Below, in pieces: positions 789-21,690 of a DNA stretch of 23,501 nt (position 1 is its first letter; every line of letters starts with the position of its first letter). The DNA is from a virus, in IMG/VR virus record IMGVR_UViG_3300025674_000409, positions 1 through 23,501 of that record, one strand, 5' to 3'. The position numbers were made by a program, and so were the translations under genes. Below the pieces are notes generated by a model that was not told the origin of the DNA, did not search any database, and saw only the letters and a program-made list of their open reading frames with translations.

Positions 789-1024
789 ATACCACATACA
801 TCTACTTTGTCATATTCTTTTGTATTGCCTACTTGATTATCACAGACCAGTCTGTAGCAAGAGGATTTTATTTACTGACTCAAATTGTAAGAGTTCAATA
901 CGAAAAGACAAAGTGGTGGATACTTCACTCACCAGATAATATCATAGTTAAATGGTTGATTCACAGAAAATCTATGAAGATGGCGAAAGAACTGATGAGA
1001 GAATTGGAAGAGAAGAATAAATAA
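785..1024 (+). CDS. small membrane-anchored protein (79 aa)
   Basis: ATG overlaps the previous stop (ATGA). Residues 4-20 (TYIYFVIFFCIAYLIIT) form one clear transmembrane segment. The rest is strongly basic and would be cytoplasmic. This is the last gene before RNA element 1, and its stop codon region overlaps the upstream late-promoter-like AATAAATA. Function unknown. Confidence 0.65.
   Translation: MNTTYIYFVIFFCIAYLIITDQSVARGFYLLTQIVRVQYEKTKWWILHSPDNIIVKWLIHRKSMKMAKELMRELEEKNK
1016..1023 (+). promoter_or_regulatory. left late-promoter-like octamer of RNA element 1
   Basis: AATAAATA ends 4 nt before the first paired base of the element 1 stem. A T4 late promoter initiates a few nt downstream of its octamer, so a transcript would begin at the stem. 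It overlaps the end of the upstream coding region. The same arrangement occurs in all five elements. Confidence 0.45.
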
Positions 1025-1027
1025 TAA

Positions 1028-1086
1028 TGTCTGTTGGTACTGCAATTCTCTACAGACAAAAGATTAGGTGCTTTCGGGCACCTTTT
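1028..1086 (+). ncRNA. RNA element 1: stem-loop with variable loop word plus terminator hairpin
   Basis: Stem 1028-1034 pairs with 1052-1058 (7 Watson-Crick pairs) and encloses a 17-nt loop. Loop bases 1035-1044 (TGGTACTGCA) are perfectly complementary to 1103-1112, just upstream of the endonuclease start. A second hairpin at 1066-1083 with a UUCG tetraloop and T-run follows. Seen directly: the complementarity and its recurrence in four other elements with different sequences. Inferred: a ~60-nt small RNA from the left promoter, or the 5' half of a pseudoknot in read-through mRNA. Either would occlude the endonuclease leader. Confidence 0.65.
1066..1086 (+). terminator. intrinsic terminator inside RNA element 1
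   Basis: Stem AGGTGC / GCACCT plus a U-G pair closing a UUCG tetraloop, followed by TTTT. It would end transcription of the upstream operon and of the predicted small RNA. Confidence 0.75.
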
Positions 1087-1090
1087 CTGT

Positions 1091-1098
1091 TATAAATA
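1091..1098 (+). promoter_or_regulatory. late promoter TATAAATA for endonuclease 1
   Basis: Exact T4-type late octamer, 7 nt after the terminator stem. It ends 4 nt before the strand complementary to the RNA loop and 25 nt before the ATG. Late mRNA would start at or near the complementary strand. Confidence 0.75.
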
Positions 1099-1123
1099 TT
1101 AATGCAGTACCAATAGAATAGAA

Positions 1124-1861
1124 ATGACTTTACAAAGTCCAAGAATTTATACATATAAAATTACCTTTGAGGAAGTTTCATACTACTATTACGGTAGTAA
1201 AAAAGAAAAGTATTTTAATGAAGAATATTGGGGATCTCCCATAACTAACAAATGGTGTTGGGATTTTTATACTCCAAAGAAACAGATATTGGAAATATTT
1301 GATTATACTGATGAAGGTTATATTAAAGCACAAGAAGTTGAAGGAAGATTGATTAGAGCAGTTTATAATACTGATAAATGGTGTTTGAATGCTAATTGCT
1401 TGGGTGTTTTTTCTATAGAACAAAAAAGAAAAGCGGGTAAAATAGGTGGAAAAATAGGAGGTAAAATAGCAGGGTTGAAGCATAAAGAAAATAAAACATC
1501 TATCTTTTCCCTAACACCAGAACAAAAAAGTGAAATTGGTAGAAAAACTGGAAATAAATGTAAAGATCTTAAAATTGGTATTTGTGGTATTACTACAGAG
1601 CAAAGAAGAGAAATCGTAAAAAAATCACATAAAACTCAAAAAGAAAATAATTCTGGAGTTTTTGGAATGAGTAGAGAAGAAAAAAGTTTAGCAGGTAAAA
1701 AAGGTGGATCTAAAGGTGGAAAAAACGCACAAAAAACCCTTAAGGATAATAAACTTGGTATTTATGGACTAACTAAAGAAGAAAGGATTGAAAATGGAAA
1801 AAAAGGCGGAGCAATTTCTGGGAAAAAACCTATGAGAATAGAACGGGATTATTTTCATTAA
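1124..1861 (+). CDS. GIY-YIG homing endonuclease 1, frameshifted near the 3' end
   Basis: Free-standing GIY-YIG nuclease. The N-terminus holds the divergent signature YTY at 9-11 and YYYYG at 20-24, a likely catalytic Glu at 71 or 73 and Asn89. From residue ~93 on there is an array of ~26-36-residue repeats with the core G-[IV]-[FY]-x-[LIM]-[ST]-x-E followed by Lys/Arg/Gly-rich stretches, a NUMOD-type DNA-binding array. The frame breaks at GGGAAAAAACC (1820-1830): a shift of -1 re-enters the same repeat pattern and continues to 2088. Preceded by RNA element 1. Such enzymes cut target phage DNA to spread their own gene. The 245-aa product lacks the last repeats and the C-terminal module. Confidence 0.85.
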   Translation: MTLQSPRIYTYKITFEEVSYYYYGSKKEKYFNEEYWGSPITNKWCWDFYTPKKQILEIFDYTDEGYIKAQEVEGRLIRAVYNTDKWCLNANCLGVFSIEQKRKAGKIGGKIGGKIAGLKHKENKTSIFSLTPEQKSEIGRKTGNKCKDLKIGICGITTEQRREIVKKSHKTQKENNSGVFGMSREEKSLAGKKGGSKGGKNAQKTLKDNKLGIYGLTKEERIENGKKGGAISGKKPMRIERDYFH

Positions 1862-3861: not shown

Positions 3862-3869
3862 GATAAATA
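3862..3869 (+). promoter_or_regulatory. left late-promoter-like octamer of RNA element 2
   Basis: GATAAATA ends 4 nt before the first (wobble) pair of the element 2 stem. Same placement as in the other four elements. Confidence 0.5.
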
Positions 3870-3873
3870 CTAG

Positions 3874-3925
3874 TGCCTTAACTGACTGCAATCTTTAAGG
3901 TGGGGGAGGATTTTTCCTCTCCTTT
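3874..3925 (+). ncRNA. RNA element 2: stem-loop with variable loop word plus terminator hairpin
   Basis: Stem 3876-3881 (CCTTAA) pairs with 3895-3900 (TTAAGG), extended outward by two G-U pairs (3875/3901 and 3874/3902). The 13-nt loop begins with CTGACTGCA (3882-3890), perfectly complementary to 3942-3950; two more pairs are possible if the stem opens. The terminator hairpin follows directly. The loop word differs from that of element 1 except for the final GCA. Function inferred as for element 1. Confidence 0.65.
3903..3925 (+). terminator. intrinsic terminator inside RNA element 2
   Basis: Eight-pair stem 3903-3910 / 3915-3922 with one G-U pair and a TTTT loop, then TTTG. It closes the 2985-3854 operon. 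Confidence 0.7.
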
Positions 3926-3929
3926 GTAA

Positions 3930-3937
3930 TATAAATA
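3930..3937 (+). promoter_or_regulatory. late promoter TATAAATA for endonuclease 2
   Basis: Exact late octamer, 7 nt after the terminator stem and 4 nt before the loop-complementary strand 3942-3950. Confidence 0.75.
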
Positions 3938-3965
3938 CCAATGCAGTCAGTTTAAGAGTAGAATT

Positions 3966-4685
3966 ATGGTAAATCCATATAGATTTTATACCTATGCTTA
4001 TTTGCGTGAGAATGGAACTCCTTATTACATAGGTAAAGGAGAAGGCAAAAGAATATATCAAAGACGAGGAAGACCCTGTACTCCTCCAAAAAATAAAGAA
4101 AGAAAAATATTTCTTAAACAAAACTTAACCGAAGAAGAAGCATTTAAGCACGAAATCTATATGATTAATGTGTTTGGTAGAATTGATATTGAAACTGGTA
4201 TTCTTCATAATAAAACCAATGGTGGAGAAGGTATTAGTGGATTTTCTCATAGTGAAGAAACAAAAAAGAAAATGAGCGAATCTCAAAAAGGGAGGATTGG
4301 AAGTTATGGATTTGGAGGAAAATCGCATACTGAAGAATCAAAGAAAAAAATGAGTGCTGCTAGAAAGGGTAGAGTCAGTCCATTTAAAGGTAAAAAAATG
4401 ACGACAGAACAAAGAAAAAAAGTAAGTGATGGGTTGAAAGGTAGAAATCTTTCTGAAGAACATAAAAGAAAAGTAGGTGATGCTTTTAGAGGAAAAACAT
4501 TGACTGAAGAGCATAAACTAAAGATAAGTCAATCAAAATTTGGAAAAAAACATTCTGAAGGAACTAAAATAAAATGTGGTTTGGGAAATAAAGGTAAAAA
4601 ATGGTGGAATGATGGAACTAATAGTAAATTTTGTAAAGAGTGTCCTGACGATGGGTGGACTTTGGGTAGAATAAGACACTGGTAA
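3966..4685 (+). CDS. GIY-YIG homing endonuclease 2 with NUMOD3-type repeats (239 aa)
   Basis: Free-standing homing endonuclease. The GIY-YIG domain covers residues ~7-90: YTY at 8-10, YYIG at 20-23, Arg29, Glu63 in KHEIYMI and Asn82 in HNKTNGG, all expected catalytic positions. Then come NUMOD3-type repeats of the form SEETKKKMSESQKG, at least six between ~95 and 200, which wrap DNA. The C-terminal module has a Cys pair (FCKECPDDGW). The start follows RNA element 2. The gene is very A-rich compared with its neighbours, suggesting separate ancestry. It sits between the end of one operon and the promoter of the next, so insertion broke no gene. Confidence 0.92.
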   Translation: MVNPYRFYTYAYLRENGTPYYIGKGEGKRIYQRRGRPCTPPKNKERKIFLKQNLTEEEAFKHEIYMINVFGRIDIETGILHNKTNGGEGISGFSHSEETKKKMSESQKGRIGSYGFGGKSHTEESKKKMSAARKGRVSPFKGKKMTTEQRKKVSDGLKGRNLSEEHKRKVGDAFRGKTLTEEHKLKISQSKFGKKHSEGTKIKCGLGNKGKKWWNDGTNSKFCKECPDDGWTLGRIRHW

Positions 4686-11557: not shown

Positions 11558-11934
11558 TGACTGAAAAGCAACCTAATGAGTTTGGCAAAGCACTACAAGA
11601 GTGGTGGGATTCTGATGCTTGTAAAGAACTACAAAAATCACATAAAGAGAGTGTAGAAAGAGCAGTAGGAAAGTATTTTATGCTTTCCGAAGAAGATAAA
11701 CTTGATATGGTGCAGGCAATTTGCACTATTATGTGTAAGGCAGAATCTGAAGGCACTTCTCATCGTGGTCTGCAAGATGCTCTAGGAATCTATCCATCGG
11801 GATTTTGGATTTCGGAGTTAATGACGGTACATAATTCTTTGTGGGGATATTTTCACGTTAAAAACCAAGAAAAAAAACTCAAAGATGATCTTGATGCTCT
11901 TGAAGACTTTATGAAGAATAAAGAAGATAAATAA
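11554..11934 (+). CDS. hypothetical phage protein (126 aa)
   Basis: ATGATG at 11554/11557 overlaps the previous stop. Helix-rich, with Cys39-type residues (DACKEL) and Trp residues in a central segment (GIYPSGFWISELMTVHNSLW). C-terminal Lys/Asp/Glu-rich helix. Its last codons contain the left late-promoter-like GATAAATA of RNA element 3. No known function. Confidence 0.7.
   Translation: MMTEKQPNEFGKALQEWWDSDACKELQKSHKESVERAVGKYFMLSEEDKLDMVQAICTIMCKAESEGTSHRGLQDALGIYPSGFWISELMTVHNSLWGYFHVKNQEKKLKDDLDALEDFMKNKEDK
11926..11933 (+). promoter_or_regulatory. left late-promoter-like octamer of RNA element 3
   Basis: GATAAATA, encoding the last residues and stop of the upstream gene, ends 3 nt before the element 3 stem. 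Confidence 0.5.
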
Positions 11935-11936
11935 TA

Positions 11937-11993
11937 TTGCTTAATGATACGGCAATTTCAATAAGCAAGAATGGGTGCTCTAGGGCACCTTTT
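11937..11993 (+). ncRNA. RNA element 3: stem-loop with variable loop word plus terminator hairpin
   Basis: Stem 11937-11943 (TTGCTTA) pairs with 11962-11968 (TAAGCAA), 7 pairs. The 18-nt loop includes ATGATACGGCA (11944-11954), complementary to 12010-12020 over 11 pairs. One of these is a G-U wobble (11946 with 12018), which points to pairing at RNA rather than DNA level. Terminator hairpin follows. Function inferred as for element 1. Confidence 0.7.
11974..11993 (+). terminator. intrinsic terminator inside RNA element 3
   Basis: Stem GGTGC / GCACC with an inner U-G pair closing a CTAG loop, followed by TTTT. Very similar to the hairpin of element 1. Confidence 0.75.
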
Positions 11994-11997
11994 CTAT

Positions 11998-12005
11998 TAT
12001 AAATA
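11998..12005 (+). promoter_or_regulatory. late promoter TATAAATA for endonuclease 3
   Basis: Exact late octamer, 8 nt after the terminator stem and 4 nt before the loop-complementary strand 12010-12020. Confidence 0.75.
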
Positions 12006-12030
12006 ATAATGCCGTATTATTAAAGCAGTT

Positions 12031-12768
12031 ATGGTAAATCCATATAAATTTTATACCTACGCATATTTGCGGAAGGATAGAACACCTTATTACATTGGTA
12101 AGGGGTGTGGAAAAAGAATTTATGCTAGTAAAGGAAGACCTTGCAATAAACCAAAAGACAAATCAAGAATTATTTTTTTAAAACAAAATTTAACTGAAGG
12201 AGAAGCATTTAAGCACGAAATCTATATGATTTCTGTGTTTGGTAGAAAAGATTTGGGAACTGGTATTCTTTATAATAGAACTGATGGTGGTGAAGGTCAT
12301 AGTAATCCATCATTAGAAACTATAGAAAAAAGAGTAAAACGCTTAAAGGGGAAAAAATTAAGTGAATCAGTTAAGAAAAAAATTAGTGACGCTGCAAAGG
12401 GAAGATCTAATTATTGGTTAAAGGGAATTCCTCGCAGTGAAGAAACAAAGCAAAAAATAAGTGAAGCAACCAAGGGTATTCTTCGCACTGAAAAAACAAA
12501 ACAAAACATAAGTAAAGCATTAAAAGGCAAACCAAAATCAGAAAATACAAAAGAAAAATTTAAAAAAATAATGGAAGAAAAGTATAGTCATATATGTTAT
12601 GAAATAATAACACCAGATAGAAATATAGAATATGTAAAAAATAGTTTAAAAAAATATTCTAAAGAAAATGGATTAAATTCTGGTTCGATGTATAATGTTG
12701 CTAATGGAAAAGCAAATCATCATAAAGGATATAAAGTCAAAAAATATATTAATAATGAAGTTTTGTAA
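12031..12768 (+). CDS. GIY-YIG homing endonuclease 3 with NUMOD3-type repeats (245 aa)
   Basis: N-terminal GIY-YIG nuclease with YTY at 8-10, YYIG at 20-23, Arg29, Glu63 (KHEIYMI) and Asn82 (YNRTDGG). The first ~80 residues are close to endonuclease 2. NUMOD3-type repeats (SEETKQKISEATKG and variants) span ~100-185. The C-terminal module (YEIITPDRNIEYVKNS, then HHKGYKV) is of the kind found at the ends of intron and free-standing endonucleases and should contact DNA. Very AT-rich. Preceded by RNA element 3. No damage seen. Confidence 0.92.
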   Translation: MVNPYKFYTYAYLRKDRTPYYIGKGCGKRIYASKGRPCNKPKDKSRIIFLKQNLTEGEAFKHEIYMISVFGRKDLGTGILYNRTDGGEGHSNPSLETIEKRVKRLKGKKLSESVKKKISDAAKGRSNYWLKGIPRSEETKQKISEATKGILRTEKTKQNISKALKGKPKSENTKEKFKKIMEEKYSHICYEIITPDRNIEYVKNSLKKYSKENGLNSGSMYNVANGKANHHKGYKVKKYINNEVL

Positions 12769-13266: not shown

Positions 13267-13273
13267 GTGACAA

Positions 13274-13280
13274 CTAAATA
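13274..13280 (+). promoter_or_regulatory. left late-promoter-like heptamer of RNA element 4
   Basis: CTAAATA ends 4 nt before the element 4 stem. A weaker match to the late consensus, but in the conserved position. Confidence 0.4.
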
Positions 13281-13284
13281 TTGA

Positions 13285-13340
13285 TGCTTGATTAAGTCGC
13301 GTTTTTCAAGTAAAATGGGAGGCAGTAATGTCTCCCCTTT
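13285..13340 (+). ncRNA. RNA element 4: stem-loop with variable loop word plus terminator hairpin
   Basis: Stem 13285-13291 pairs with 13306-13312 (one G-U). The 14-nt loop carries TTAAGTCGCG (13292-13301), complementary to 13357-13366 over 10 pairs, the last being G-U. A long hairpin with a GUAA (GNRA) tetraloop follows. Same layout as the other elements with an unrelated loop word. Function inferred as for element 1. Confidence 0.65.
13317..13340 (+). terminator. intrinsic terminator inside RNA element 4
   Basis: Eight pairs 13317-13324 / 13329-13336 (one G-U) closed by a GUAA tetraloop, then CTTT and further T-rich sequence. It ends the cp12 transcript. Confidence 0.75.
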
Positions 13341-13344
13341 GTTT

Positions 13345-13352
13345 TATAAATA
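13345..13352 (+). promoter_or_regulatory. late promoter TATAAATA for endonuclease 4
   Basis: Exact late octamer, 8 nt after the terminator stem and 4 nt before the loop-complementary strand 13357-13366. Confidence 0.75.
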
Positions 13353-13376
13353 CTATTGCGACTTAAATCAAAGCAG

Positions 13377-13859
13377 ATGGAATATTACACTTACGCTTAC
13401 TTGCGTGAAGATGGGACACCCTATTATATTGGTAAGGGGAAAGGTAATAGAGCGTATGTAAAACATTGGAGAAGTAAATCTAAAGGTGGATATTTTTCTC
13501 CTCCAGAAAAAGATAAAATACTTATTCTCAAAAATAATCTAACAGAAGAGCAAGAATATCGACACGAAATGTATATGATTTCTATTCTTGGTAGAAAAGA
13601 TTTGGGCACGGGTATTTTGAGAAATATGAGTGATGGGGGTAAAGGTGGAAAAGGTGTTCCTGCTTGGAATAAAGGTGGGACTATACCAGAACATCAAAAA
13701 GAAATAAACAGACAGATGATGAAGAAAAGATATGAAAATGGATATGATAGGCGATCACTTTCAAGAGTTAAAAATAAACAGCATAAAAAACACAAGGATA
13801 TTGTGGCAGTTGAGGAAGTGTCACAGGATATCTTGCGGAGTGCTCTGGATGACCTATAA
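13377..13859 (+). CDS. GIY-YIG homing endonuclease 4, short form (160 aa)
   Basis: ATG 13377 (MEYYTYAYLRED) is chosen; the TTG at 13356 lies at the late promoter and complementary strand. The GIY-YIG domain is intact: YTY, YYIG, the GKGKGNR Arg, Glu in RHEMYMI and Asn in RNMSDGG. Only one partial repeat-like segment follows (AWNKGGTIPEHQKEI). The last ~20 residues (VEEVSQDILRSALDDL) lie over the next promoter and do not look like a DNA-binding module. The C-terminus is probably truncated into phage sequence, so binding specificity may be reduced. Confidence 0.88.
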   Translation: MEYYTYAYLREDGTPYYIGKGKGNRAYVKHWRSKSKGGYFSPPEKDKILILKNNLTEEQEYRHEMYMISILGRKDLGTGILRNMSDGGKGGKGVPAWNKGGTIPEHQKEINRQMMKKRYENGYDRRSLSRVKNKQHKKHKDIVAVEEVSQDILRSALDDL

Positions 13860-19658: not shown

Positions 19659-19816
19659 TGAATAAACACACTAAGTTGATTCTAGCACTTCAACAAGTGA
19701 ATAACATAGCTTCTTTGGTTCGGGAAAATGAATATAAACAATTTTTATATTCTCATCTTATTTCAGTTGAAATTGAGTTAAAGAGACAAATTTTATGTCT
19801 AAATAATCAAACCTGA
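19658..19816 (+). CDS. small helical protein (52 aa)
   Basis: ATG 19658 to TGA 19814-19816. Begins MNKHTKLILALQQVNNIASL; similar openings occur in cyanophages from memory. Its last codons contain the left CTAAATA motif and the first stem bases of RNA element 5, so the element arose in, or was fitted into, the end of a coding region. Confidence 0.7.
   Translation: MNKHTKLILALQQVNNIASLVRENEYKQFLYSHLISVEIELKRQILCLNNQT
19799..19805 (+). promoter_or_regulatory. left late-promoter-like heptamer of RNA element 5
   Basis: CTAAATA ends 6 nt before the element 5 stem, inside the upstream coding sequence. Same relative place as in elements 1-4. Confidence 0.4.
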
Positions 19817-19858
19817 TGAGCCGCATTATCAGGAGGAGGGTGAAAGTCCCTCCTTTTT
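19812..19858 (+). ncRNA. RNA element 5: stem-loop with variable loop word plus terminator hairpin
   Basis: Stem 19812-19817 (CCTGAT) pairs with 19828-19833 (ATCAGG). The 10-nt loop GAGCCGCATT contains GAGCCGCAT (19818-19826), complementary to 19872-19880, with two further pairs possible if the stem opens. The terminator hairpin follows with a run of five T. The most compact of the five copies. Function inferred as for element 1. Confidence 0.68.
19834..19858 (+). terminator. intrinsic terminator inside RNA element 5
   Basis: Stem AGGAGGG / TCCCTCCT-type pairing 19834-19840 / 19848-19854 with a 7-nt loop, followed by TTTT. Confidence 0.8.
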
Positions 19859-19860
19859 AG

Positions 19861-19868
19861 CATAAATA
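19861..19868 (+). promoter_or_regulatory. late promoter CATAAATA for endonuclease 5
   Basis: One mismatch to TATAAATA, 6 nt after the terminator stem and 3 nt before the loop-complementary strand 19872-19880. Confidence 0.7.
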
Positions 19869-19891
19869 AATATGCGGCTCATTGGTTAAAA

Positions 19892-20644
19892 ATGTATTAC
19901 TACACTTACGCATATCTGCGTACAGATAAAACACCCTACTACATTGGTAAAGGGAAGGGGAAAAGATTGTATGATAAAAGTAGAAAAGGTGTAAAACCTC
20001 CAAAAGATAAATCCAGAATCATACTTCTAAAACAAAACTTAACTGAAGAAGAAGCATTCAAGCACGAAATCTATATGATTGCTGTGTTTGGTAGAAAAGA
20101 TTTAGGAACAGGTATTCTTCATAATAGAACTAATGGTGGTGACGGAAGTAGTGGATGGATTGCCACTCCAGAGTTAAGGAAAAGGATGAGTGAGTATAGG
20201 AAAGGGAAAAAACTTAAACCATTATCAAAAGAAACAAAACAAAAGCTAAGGGAAATAAATTTAGGTAAAAAACATAATGAAGAAGCAAAAGCAAAAATGA
20301 GTGCTTCACACAAGGGTAAAAAAAGAAAACCACATTCTACCAAAACAAAAAAACAATTAAGTTTACTAAAACAGGGGATATTTGATGGAAATAAAAATCC
20401 TATGTTTGGCAAAACTCATAATAAAGAAACTAAACTAAAGATGTCAGAAAAAGCAAAATCAAGAAGCAGAGTAAGATATTCTAAACTTTATGAATTTGTT
20501 TCTCCAAATGGTGAAAAAATCATTGAATTTACAACAATTTTTGATTTTTGTAGTAAAAATAATCTAAGACATGATTGTATGAATAAAGTACTTCACGGAA
20601 AAAGAAAATCCCATAAGGGGTGGACAGTTTCCATAGAGTCATAA
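19892..20644 (+). CDS. GIY-YIG homing endonuclease 5 with NUMOD3-type repeats (250 aa)
   Basis: GIY-YIG domain intact: YYTYAYL at 2-8, YYIG, GKGKGKR Arg, Glu in KHEIYMI and Asn in HNRTNGG. NUMOD3-type repeats such as SKETKQKLREINLGKKHNEE and HNKETKLKMSEKAKS span ~90-190. The C-terminal module (LYEFVSPNGEKIIEFTTI, then HKGWTV) resembles those of endonucleases 3 and 6. AT-rich and Lys-rich. Preceded by RNA element 5. A promoter starts 6 nt after its stop. Confidence 0.92.
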   Translation: MYYYTYAYLRTDKTPYYIGKGKGKRLYDKSRKGVKPPKDKSRIILLKQNLTEEEAFKHEIYMIAVFGRKDLGTGILHNRTNGGDGSSGWIATPELRKRMSEYRKGKKLKPLSKETKQKLREINLGKKHNEEAKAKMSASHKGKKRKPHSTKTKKQLSLLKQGIFDGNKNPMFGKTHNKETKLKMSEKAKSRSRVRYSKLYEFVSPNGEKIIEFTTIFDFCSKNNLRHDCMNKVLHGKRKSHKGWTVSIES

Positions 20645-21115: not shown

Positions 21116-21123
21116 TATAAATA
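21116..21123 (+). promoter_or_regulatory. late promoter TATAAATA remaining at endonuclease 6
   Basis: Exact late octamer, but no upstream stem-loop, terminator or loop complement is visible, unlike the other five loci. It ends 8 nt before the damaged ATG. Confidence 0.6.
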
Positions 21124-21131
21124 GGTCTAGT

Positions 21132-21690
21132 ATGTGAAAATCTTAGGTATTATACCTATGCTTATTTGCGTGAAGATGGAAGTCCTTACTACATTGGTAT
21201 GGGCAAGAGACAAAGAATAAATCGTCCTCACAATAGAGCAAAGGGTAATTTTGTTCCATTACCACCTTTGAATAGAAGATTAAAACTAAAAACTAATCTC
21301 ACTTTAGAAGAAGCAAAATCACACGAAATTTATATGATATCTGTCTTTGGAAGAAAATATTTAGGAACTGGTATTCTTCTTAATATGACTAATGGTGGCG
21401 ATGCAGGAACTGCTTTAGGTGAGAAAAATTATTTTTATGGTAAGAGTGAATATGGTGGATGGAACAAAGGAGTTTCTCCATCTGAAGAAGTAAAGAAAAA
21501 AATTAAAGAGGCACATTCTTCTTGGTTTTTATTTAAACATAAGGATGGTAGAGAATTAAAGTTATTCACCACACTTAAATCATTTTGTGAAGAACACAAA
21601 TTAGATCGAAGAACTATGATTAGAGTAATGAACAAAATACCAAAATACAAACAACACAAAGGATGGACAGTTTATAAACTGGAGCATTGA
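21132..21690 (+). pseudogene. GIY-YIG homing endonuclease 6 with disrupted 5' end
   Basis: The frame encodes RYYTYAYLREDGSPYYIGMG, Glu in SHEIYMI, Asn in LNMTNGG and a C-terminal module (WFLFKHKDGRELKLF, then HKGWTV), so it is a short GIY-YIG endonuclease with almost no NUMOD3 repeats. No in-frame ATG lies upstream of the GIY tyrosine. ATG 21132 runs into TGA at once; removing one T at 21135 gives MENLRYYTYAY in frame. TTG 21166 would cut off the first catalytic Tyr. Probably inactive, or a sequencing error. Its TGA overlaps the next -35 box. Confidence 0.75.

Follow-up and report, generated by a model that had tools for sequence, protein, structure and literature searches.

Our analysis of a 23.5-kb viral record (IMGVR_UViG_3300025674_000409, positions 1–23,501; hereafter the window, that is, the whole stretch of DNA analysed) suggests that homing-endonuclease genes (HEGs) of T4-like cyanophages are equipped with an RNA brake of their own: five of the six GIY-YIG-like HEGs in the window share a leader that probably functions as a tandem antisense module resembling the RNA-OUT/RNA-IN pair of IS10, in which a small RNA encoded by the upstream half acts in trans on the endonuclease mRNA that begins in the downstream half, with silencing of read-through mRNA in cis as a second layer.

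The five leaders (elements A–E) have a common layout, in which transcripts, promoters, terminators and start sites are assigned from consensus. A late promoter, NNTAAATA, is followed after 5 nucleotides (nt) by a predicted start site (+1; G or A), a hairpin (P1), an intrinsic terminator and a second late promoter (TATAAATA, or CATAAATA in element E), and then, after 5 nt, by a second predicted +1, a 5′ untranslated region (UTR) of 18–23 nt and the ATG; for T4-like cyanophages, or cyanomyoviruses, the late motif has been published as NATAAATA (PMC2984593). The loop of P1 holds a word, W, the complement of which, W′, lies at the +1 of the right promoter, and each of the five elements bears its own word. 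An initial annotation had proposed for element A these leader parts, a discrete RNA of 50–60 nt with W in its loop, and an endonuclease mRNA starting at W′. All parts are present there and at four further HEGs of the window; the left promoter and the terminator predict small RNAs of 48–59 nt, and the predicted right +1 coincides with W′, in agreement with that proposal. Of 143 parsed elements, 141 have a W′ that begins at the predicted right +1 or up to 3 nt before it, and the terminator stem of element A has seven pairs followed by a T-run, with 0.0 expected in shuffled sequence. The observation of the leader is confirmed as real and beyond chance.

The two halves of the leader are complementary as RNA. 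Among 127 sites picked by the promoter pair and the T-run, with pairing playing no part in the choice, 119 have 8 or 9 Watson–Crick matches out of 9 between the first nine mRNA bases and the upstream hairpin, as compared with about 6 sites expected after random re-pairing. The departures from Watson–Crick pairing at these sites are 21 G·U and one A·C, counted on sites chosen free of an energy criterion, since such a criterion could favour G·U; because a G·U on this strand would read A·C on the other, the pairing is that of the RNA of this strand and not a DNA repeat. Fold energies, computed at 37 °C without proteins, separate the partners well: for 98 unique elements, the duplex amounts to −21.1 ± 1.7 kcal/mol for cognate and −9.2 ± 3.7 kcal/mol for non-cognate pairs. 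The predicted duplex begins at nucleotide 1 of the small RNA in 85 of these 98 and ends 1–6 nt before the AUG in most; its start at nucleotide 1 of the mRNA in 98/98 is partly by construction, as the mRNA was cut at +1. The complementarity thus has the predicted +1 of the small RNA at one end and that of the mRNA at the other; it takes in the ribosome-landing region and reaches beyond W into the 5′ arm of P1 and the bases just ahead of the ATG. The initiation region carries only a weak Shine–Dalgarno sequence.

The 5′ arm of P1, which comes in 22 types, pairs both with the 3′ arm of P1 and with the mRNA stretch between W′ and the AUG, and all three change together (5′ arm/3′ arm/mRNA: GCCTGA/CAGG/AAGAGCA; GTCTGT/ACAGAC/ATAGAATA; GCTTAT/AAGC/ATAAAGCA). 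With one representative per arm type, which is a partial control for relatedness, the values are −5.58 vs. −3.28 kcal/mol for P1 and −3.54 vs. −2.05 kcal/mol for the arm–mRNA pairing, both beyond all 300 permutations; with all elements included, the two pairings likewise surpass every permutation. In RNA reading through from the left promoter into the gene, P1 gives way to a W:W′ helix in each of the 98 predicted folds (−40.9 kcal/mol, compared with −27.8 kcal/mol for the halves folded separately; z = −6.1 for the helix of element A), and the mRNA from the right promoter is predicted to be open at W′ (mean unpaired 0.74). The cis pseudoknot that had been offered as an alternative for the read-through mRNA is rejected, as the predicted fold is a simple long helix displacing P1. 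P1 takes no part in the cis helix, of which it is a competitor, so its conservation points to a free small RNA.

The module is widespread and serves several nuclease superfamilies. The following counts refer to loci many of which are metagenomic contigs related to one another. A search by endonuclease protein alone yielded 72 usable leaders, of which 50 have the complete layout, 2 have a TATATA-like left promoter and 10 belong to a second type (type II, see below); an independent search by terminator tail and right promoter only initially listed 73 sites, and the left half and W are present at almost all of them. Over the full set of loci that this latter search returned, the left TAAATA is present in 91 of 94, against a background of 2.9%. 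The pattern TAAATA-N55–85-TATAAATA has 62 matches in 31 related phage records, and the reversed pattern has none. TAAATA stands 5 nt ahead of a purine +1 in 135, and the right octamer is TATAAATA in 136, of 141 elements; the isolate S-SRM01 has at least four elements. The nucleases downstream are GIY-YIG, HNH, Endo VII-like and possibly PD-(D/E)XK, with several matches below Pfam cut-offs. A first scan with a loose promoter rule gave about 10 spurious matches, equal to its shuffle control, and stricter tests were used instead. Scanning 84,980 cellular genomes with the leader pattern returned five matches, none with the architecture, and no Rfam covariance model, including those of HEARO/OMEGA RNA and of cyanophage motifs, matched the window at E ≤ 1. 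We found no description of such a module in the openly accessible literature, subscription papers lying outside that search; the module has apparently not been described so far.

The words are diverse, with 60 distinct mRNA 5′ words in 92 elements. In the window, each loop does match only its own leader, as initially noted: the five cognate pairs have −19.3 to −24.4 kcal/mol and every other pairing −2.6 to −11.9 kcal/mol. The further idea that words are kept apart to prevent cross-talk is not upheld. Strong cross-pairing amounts to 4.4% within and 2.6% between genomes (permutation p = 0.90 for avoidance; 16 genomes, 53 elements), and two of the 16 genomes (records G003 and G005) have the same word twice; there is thus no sign that genomes avoid repeating a word, and we rejected the view that orthogonality was selected for; it looks like a by-product of word diversity. 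Nor are words tied to a particular endonuclease: CTGTAAGTCGCA, AATTGGTTCGCA and TTTTGTTTGTGGT each stand before more than one protein family, including unrelated nucleases, and we discarded endonuclease-specific words as an explanation. One chimaeric leader (L086, minus strand, ~14341), which has lost its left promoter and is cut off by the contig end, combines a W of the GTGTGGTTCGCA type with a mismatched W′ of the GTGTTTCGCA type.

We propose that each element is a mobile-nuclease cassette carrying its own antisense brake. Late in infection, the left late promoter would produce an RNA of about 50 nt, consisting of P1 presenting W and then the terminator, whose position between W and W′ would release the small RNA; the right late promoter would produce the endonuclease mRNA beginning at W′. 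The W loop would contact the free 5′ end of the mRNA and pairing would then extend through the 5′ arm of P1, giving a duplex of about 15–17 bp, from +1 to +1, that covers the short 5′ UTR to within a few bases of the AUG, so that ribosomes could not load. RNA reading through from upstream would fold W:W′ in cis and would likewise be silent. As the small RNA would be diffusible and its dose would rise with element copy number, as for RNA-OUT of IS10, it would hold nuclease output down while the phage DNA is being multiplied. We infer transcription, repression and the dose effect in this scheme from the architecture, the RNA-level complementarity, the covariation and the conservation described above.

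Type II leaders, about 29 of which are distinct, carry W in a hairpin nested within the terminator stem (GGGCAGCAAC-W-GTTGCGTAAGTCCC; GGGCAGCAACTTGTGTC...AGTTGCGTAAGTCCC). They have no left late promoter, W′ adjoins the ATG in most, and their right promoter resembles overlapping σ70 (TTGCGT-17-TATAAT) and late (TAAATA) motifs; the type II DNA pattern was too unspecific and was replaced by the protein search. At three further loci, orphan left halves have the left late promoter and an intact P1/W hairpin, with neither W′ nor an endonuclease downstream; these are either remnants or stand-alone silencers, and we count them among the points in favour of a trans-acting RNA. A search for the partner of one of them (L158) in its own record found one 9-mer, no more than the control. 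At one insertion site (after ...YFSRLAND*; L082, L087, L097, L107, L397 and L402), closely similar leaders precede different nucleases, and leader and nuclease are therefore independently exchangeable modules. The insertion point of element A is itself a late promoter: in S-SRM01 and DSL-LC03, relatives in which the site is empty, TAAATA immediately precedes the same downstream gene, and TAAATA flanks the insert on both sides in the window, hinting that the cassettes may insert at late promoters. The left octamer varies in its first two bases according to the site.

Several points weigh against a trans-acting brake. The small RNA is putative, predicted from promoter and terminator consensus; the W:W′ cis helix in all predicted read-through folds means that sequestration in cis by itself explains the pairing; type II leaders (10 of the 72 protein-selected leaders) keep W:W′ and the terminator with no evident promoter of their own; the orphan hairpins at three loci may be no more than leftovers; the site-dependent first bases of the left octamer, together with the late promoter in the empty relatives, leave room for a left promoter that belongs to the target and was not selected to drive the small RNA; and right promoters are closer to consensus than left ones, so the small RNA may not outnumber the mRNA. 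These points bear on an arrangement of the kind known from T4, in which W:W′ would be a helix sequestering the ribosome-binding site only in read-through RNA, the late promoter between the arms would make an mRNA without the 5′ arm, which would be translated, and the left promoter and terminator would be insulation or relics of the insertion site. Such a cis-only arrangement, the chief rival of the trans-acting brake, is possible, if on the unlikely side. It has a precedent in I-TevI, I-TevII, I-TevIII, segB and mobE, where a late promoter lies inside the sequestering hairpin (PMC2988022), and it accommodates the cis helix of all 98 leaders with its z of −6.1 in element A, the promoterless left side of type II leaders and the start of element A at a late promoter shared with empty relatives. 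It leaves unexplained, however, why P1 covaries while competing with the cis helix, why the left late promoter is present at fixed spacing in 91 of 94 sites, and why the complementarity begins at the left +1; moreover, with a terminator between the arms there is little left for sequestration to do. We favour the trans-acting brake over cis-only control because the left +1 opens the complementarity, P1 is useful only in a free RNA and the terminator separates the halves. Given the +1-to-+1 extent, the RNA-level pairing and the P1 covariation, trans control is the most economical reading, and the initial suggestion that the RNA pairs with the mRNA 5′ end is to this extent supported, although cis-only control is a less likely alternative.

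The remaining explanations fare worse. The small RNA might protect or activate the mRNA, for example by shielding its 5′ end from RNase, or direct cleavage by RNase III; two paired 5′ ends would indeed form a blunt duplex at the mRNA 5′ end, but the duplex spans the ribosome-landing region to 1–6 nt from the AUG in most elements, where known pairings repress, and we regard this explanation as improbable. Far more remote is the idea that W/W′ is an inverted repeat in DNA, either an operator bound by the endonuclease or a recombination feature: I-TevI does bind an operator over its own late promoter in autorepression (PMC2988022), and W′ sits at the start site, but the 21 to 1 excess of G·U over A·C is unexpected for a DNA repeat and led us to reject it, and the same word stands ahead of unrelated nucleases. 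Chance or a composition artefact of AT-rich phage leaders, which has AT richness in its favour and nothing more, deserves practically no credence, as it is refuted by the pattern control (62 vs. 0) and by the re-pairing control (119/127 vs. ~6).

The proposed brake is best compared with four known systems. RNA-OUT of IS10 blocks ribosome binding and has a stronger effect with copy number (PMC5006887). As in IS10/Tn10, a short hairpin RNA (~50–70 nt there) pairs with the 5′ end and initiation region of the mRNA for the DNA enzyme of a mobile element, and what we predict here is likewise a short hairpin RNA that can base-pair with its target mRNA at the 5′ end and over the ribosome-binding region. 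Unlike in IS10, the RNA lies upstream on the same strand and does not overlap its target, and W and W′ must co-evolve; the promoters are phage late promoters, and there is no sequence relation to IS10. Because origin from the opposite strand defines the IS10 system and the halves here are in tandem on the same strand, the module is not an IS10-type member. In the hairpins of T4-type HEGs, the mRNA starts at a late promoter between the arms of the inhibitory helix, and only read-through RNA is sequestered (PMC2988022). The module shares with these hairpins (I-TevI, I-TevII, I-TevIII, segB and Aeh1 mobE) both the late promoter between the arms and the predicted sequestration of read-through RNA; it differs in that the 5′ arm has its own late promoter, an alternative hairpin (P1) and its own terminator, and hence the potential to form a free RNA, and in that one kind of cassette, in versions with dozens of different words, stands in front of many nuclease families.

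Type I toxin–antitoxin pairs with a separately encoded antisense RNA are exemplified by istR/tisB. There, too, a small RNA encoded next to the gene for a possibly harmful protein is complementary, to a limited extent, to the 5′ UTR of that gene, but here the target is a homing nuclease rather than a membrane peptide and the arrangement is tandem rather than divergent; the likeness to type I systems drawn in the initial annotation holds as an analogy, RNA-OUT/RNA-IN of IS10 being nearer. CfrI of cyanophage S-PM2 (psbA/F-CphI) is also an antisense RNA beside a cyanophage homing endonuclease, but it is about 225 nt long, lies on the opposite strand and spans psbA and the HEG, whereas the RNAs predicted here have 48–59 nt and lie on the sense strand upstream of the HEGs.

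The neighbouring genes in the window resemble those of T4-like cyanophages of the Kyanoviridae (e.g. Synechococcus phages S-SRM01, DSL-LC03 and S-PM2). The HEGs were assigned by Pfam NUMOD3 repeats and the PHROG annotation "homing endonuclease", with the GIY-YIG UvrC domain as a weak best fold match; the structure model of HEG B is weak (predicted local distance difference test, pLDDT, 66), and its top PDB matches are GIY-YIG UvrC domains (E 0.14). The frame of HEG A is broken near 1838–1861: a frame of 245 amino acids stops at 1861, and the same NUMOD-type sequence runs on in another frame to 2087. Its leader is intact despite the broken frame, for which an assembly error is possible. The sixth HEG has no W/W′ pair upstream and no ATG start, and is perhaps a decayed copy.

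Table 1. Predicted leader elements and HEGs of the window, and related loci in other records
Feature	Position	Strand	Details
Element A, left late-promoter octamer AATAAATA	1016–1023	+	predicted +1 = G1029
Element A, predicted small RNA	1029–1086	+	58 nt; P1 arms 1029–1034/1052–1057; terminator stem 1066–1083 and T-run
Element A, loop word W TTGGTACTGCA	1034–1044	+	
Element A, right late-promoter octamer TATAAATA	1091–1098	+	predicted +1 = G1104
Element A, W′ TGCAGTACCAA	1103–1113	+	5′ end of endonuclease mRNA; cognate duplex −24.4 kcal/mol
HEG A, GIY-YIG-like	1124–1861	+	ATG at 1124
Element B, left late promoter GATAAATA	3862–3869	+	+1 = 3875
Element B, predicted small RNA	3875–3925	+	51 nt; W AACTGACTGCA at 3880–3890
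Element B, right late promoter TATAAATA and W′	3930–3952	+	promoter 3930–3937, +1 = 3943; W′ 3942–3952
HEG B, GIY-YIG-like with NUMOD3 repeats	3966–4685	+	Pfam, PHROG, fold match
Element C, left late promoter GATAAATA	11926–11933	+	+1 = 11939
Element C, predicted small RNA	11939–11993	+	55 nt; W core ATACGGCA at 11947–11954
Element C, right late promoter and W′ core	11998–12017	+	promoter 11998–12005, +1 = 12011; W′ core 12010–12017
HEG C, GIY-YIG-like/NUMOD3	12031–12768	+	Pfam
Element D, left late promoter ACTAAATA	13273–13280	+	+1 = 13286
Element D, predicted small RNA	13286–13344	+	up to 59 nt; W TTAAGTCGC at 13292–13300
Element D, right late promoter and W′	13345–13366	+	promoter 13345–13352, +1 = 13358; W′ 13358–13366
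HEG D, GIY-YIG-like	13377–13859	+	PHROG
Element E, left late promoter TCTAAATA	19798–19805	+	+1 = 19811
Element E, predicted small RNA	19811–19858	+	48 nt; W ATGAGCCGCAT at 19816–19826
Element E, right late promoter CATAAATA and W′	19861–19882	+	promoter 19861–19868, +1 = 19874; W′ 19872–19882
HEG E, GIY-YIG-like/NUMOD3	19892–20644	+	Pfam
Sixth HEG	21116–21690		gene at 21148; late promoter TATAAATA at 21116; open reading frame (ORF) opens at TTG, not ATG
Element A insertion comparison	window 1016–1023 and 2083–2112; L275 ~2480; L274 ~2470		
Type II loci upstream of GIY-YIG ORFs	L043, L047, L054, L056, L058, L060, L076, L092, among others		
Further type II loci upstream of GIY-YIG ORFs	L276, L294, L332, L351, L418, L457		
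Orphan left halves	L107 ~5011; L158 ~4366; L398 ~1377	L107 and L158 minus	terminator kept too in L107

Phages commonly carry selfish genes of the free-standing homing-endonuclease kind. That most GIY-YIG HEG leaders in our cyanophage sample contain a compact RNA module bears on how phages tolerate many HEGs at once, and because the module is recognisable and common to several nuclease superfamilies, this question becomes directly testable. A more speculative extension, which we hold to be unlikely, is that the leader is an exchangeable lock and key shared by cyanophage homing elements, its word types being comparable to incompatibility groups: a resident element would use its small RNA to silence the nuclease, of whatever family, of any co-infecting element with the same word, and orphan hairpins that outlast the loss of their nuclease would confer immunity as genes in their own right. 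In that case, word diversity would be driven by selfish elements competing with one another. If the trans-acting brake is real, it would be an antisense RNA encoded in tandem with its target and free of overlap with it, the two halves co-evolving into dozens of pairs that are naturally distinct; it would be useful for studying conflict between selfish elements, and would offer a natural source of orthogonal regulators of the RNA-IN/RNA-OUT kind.
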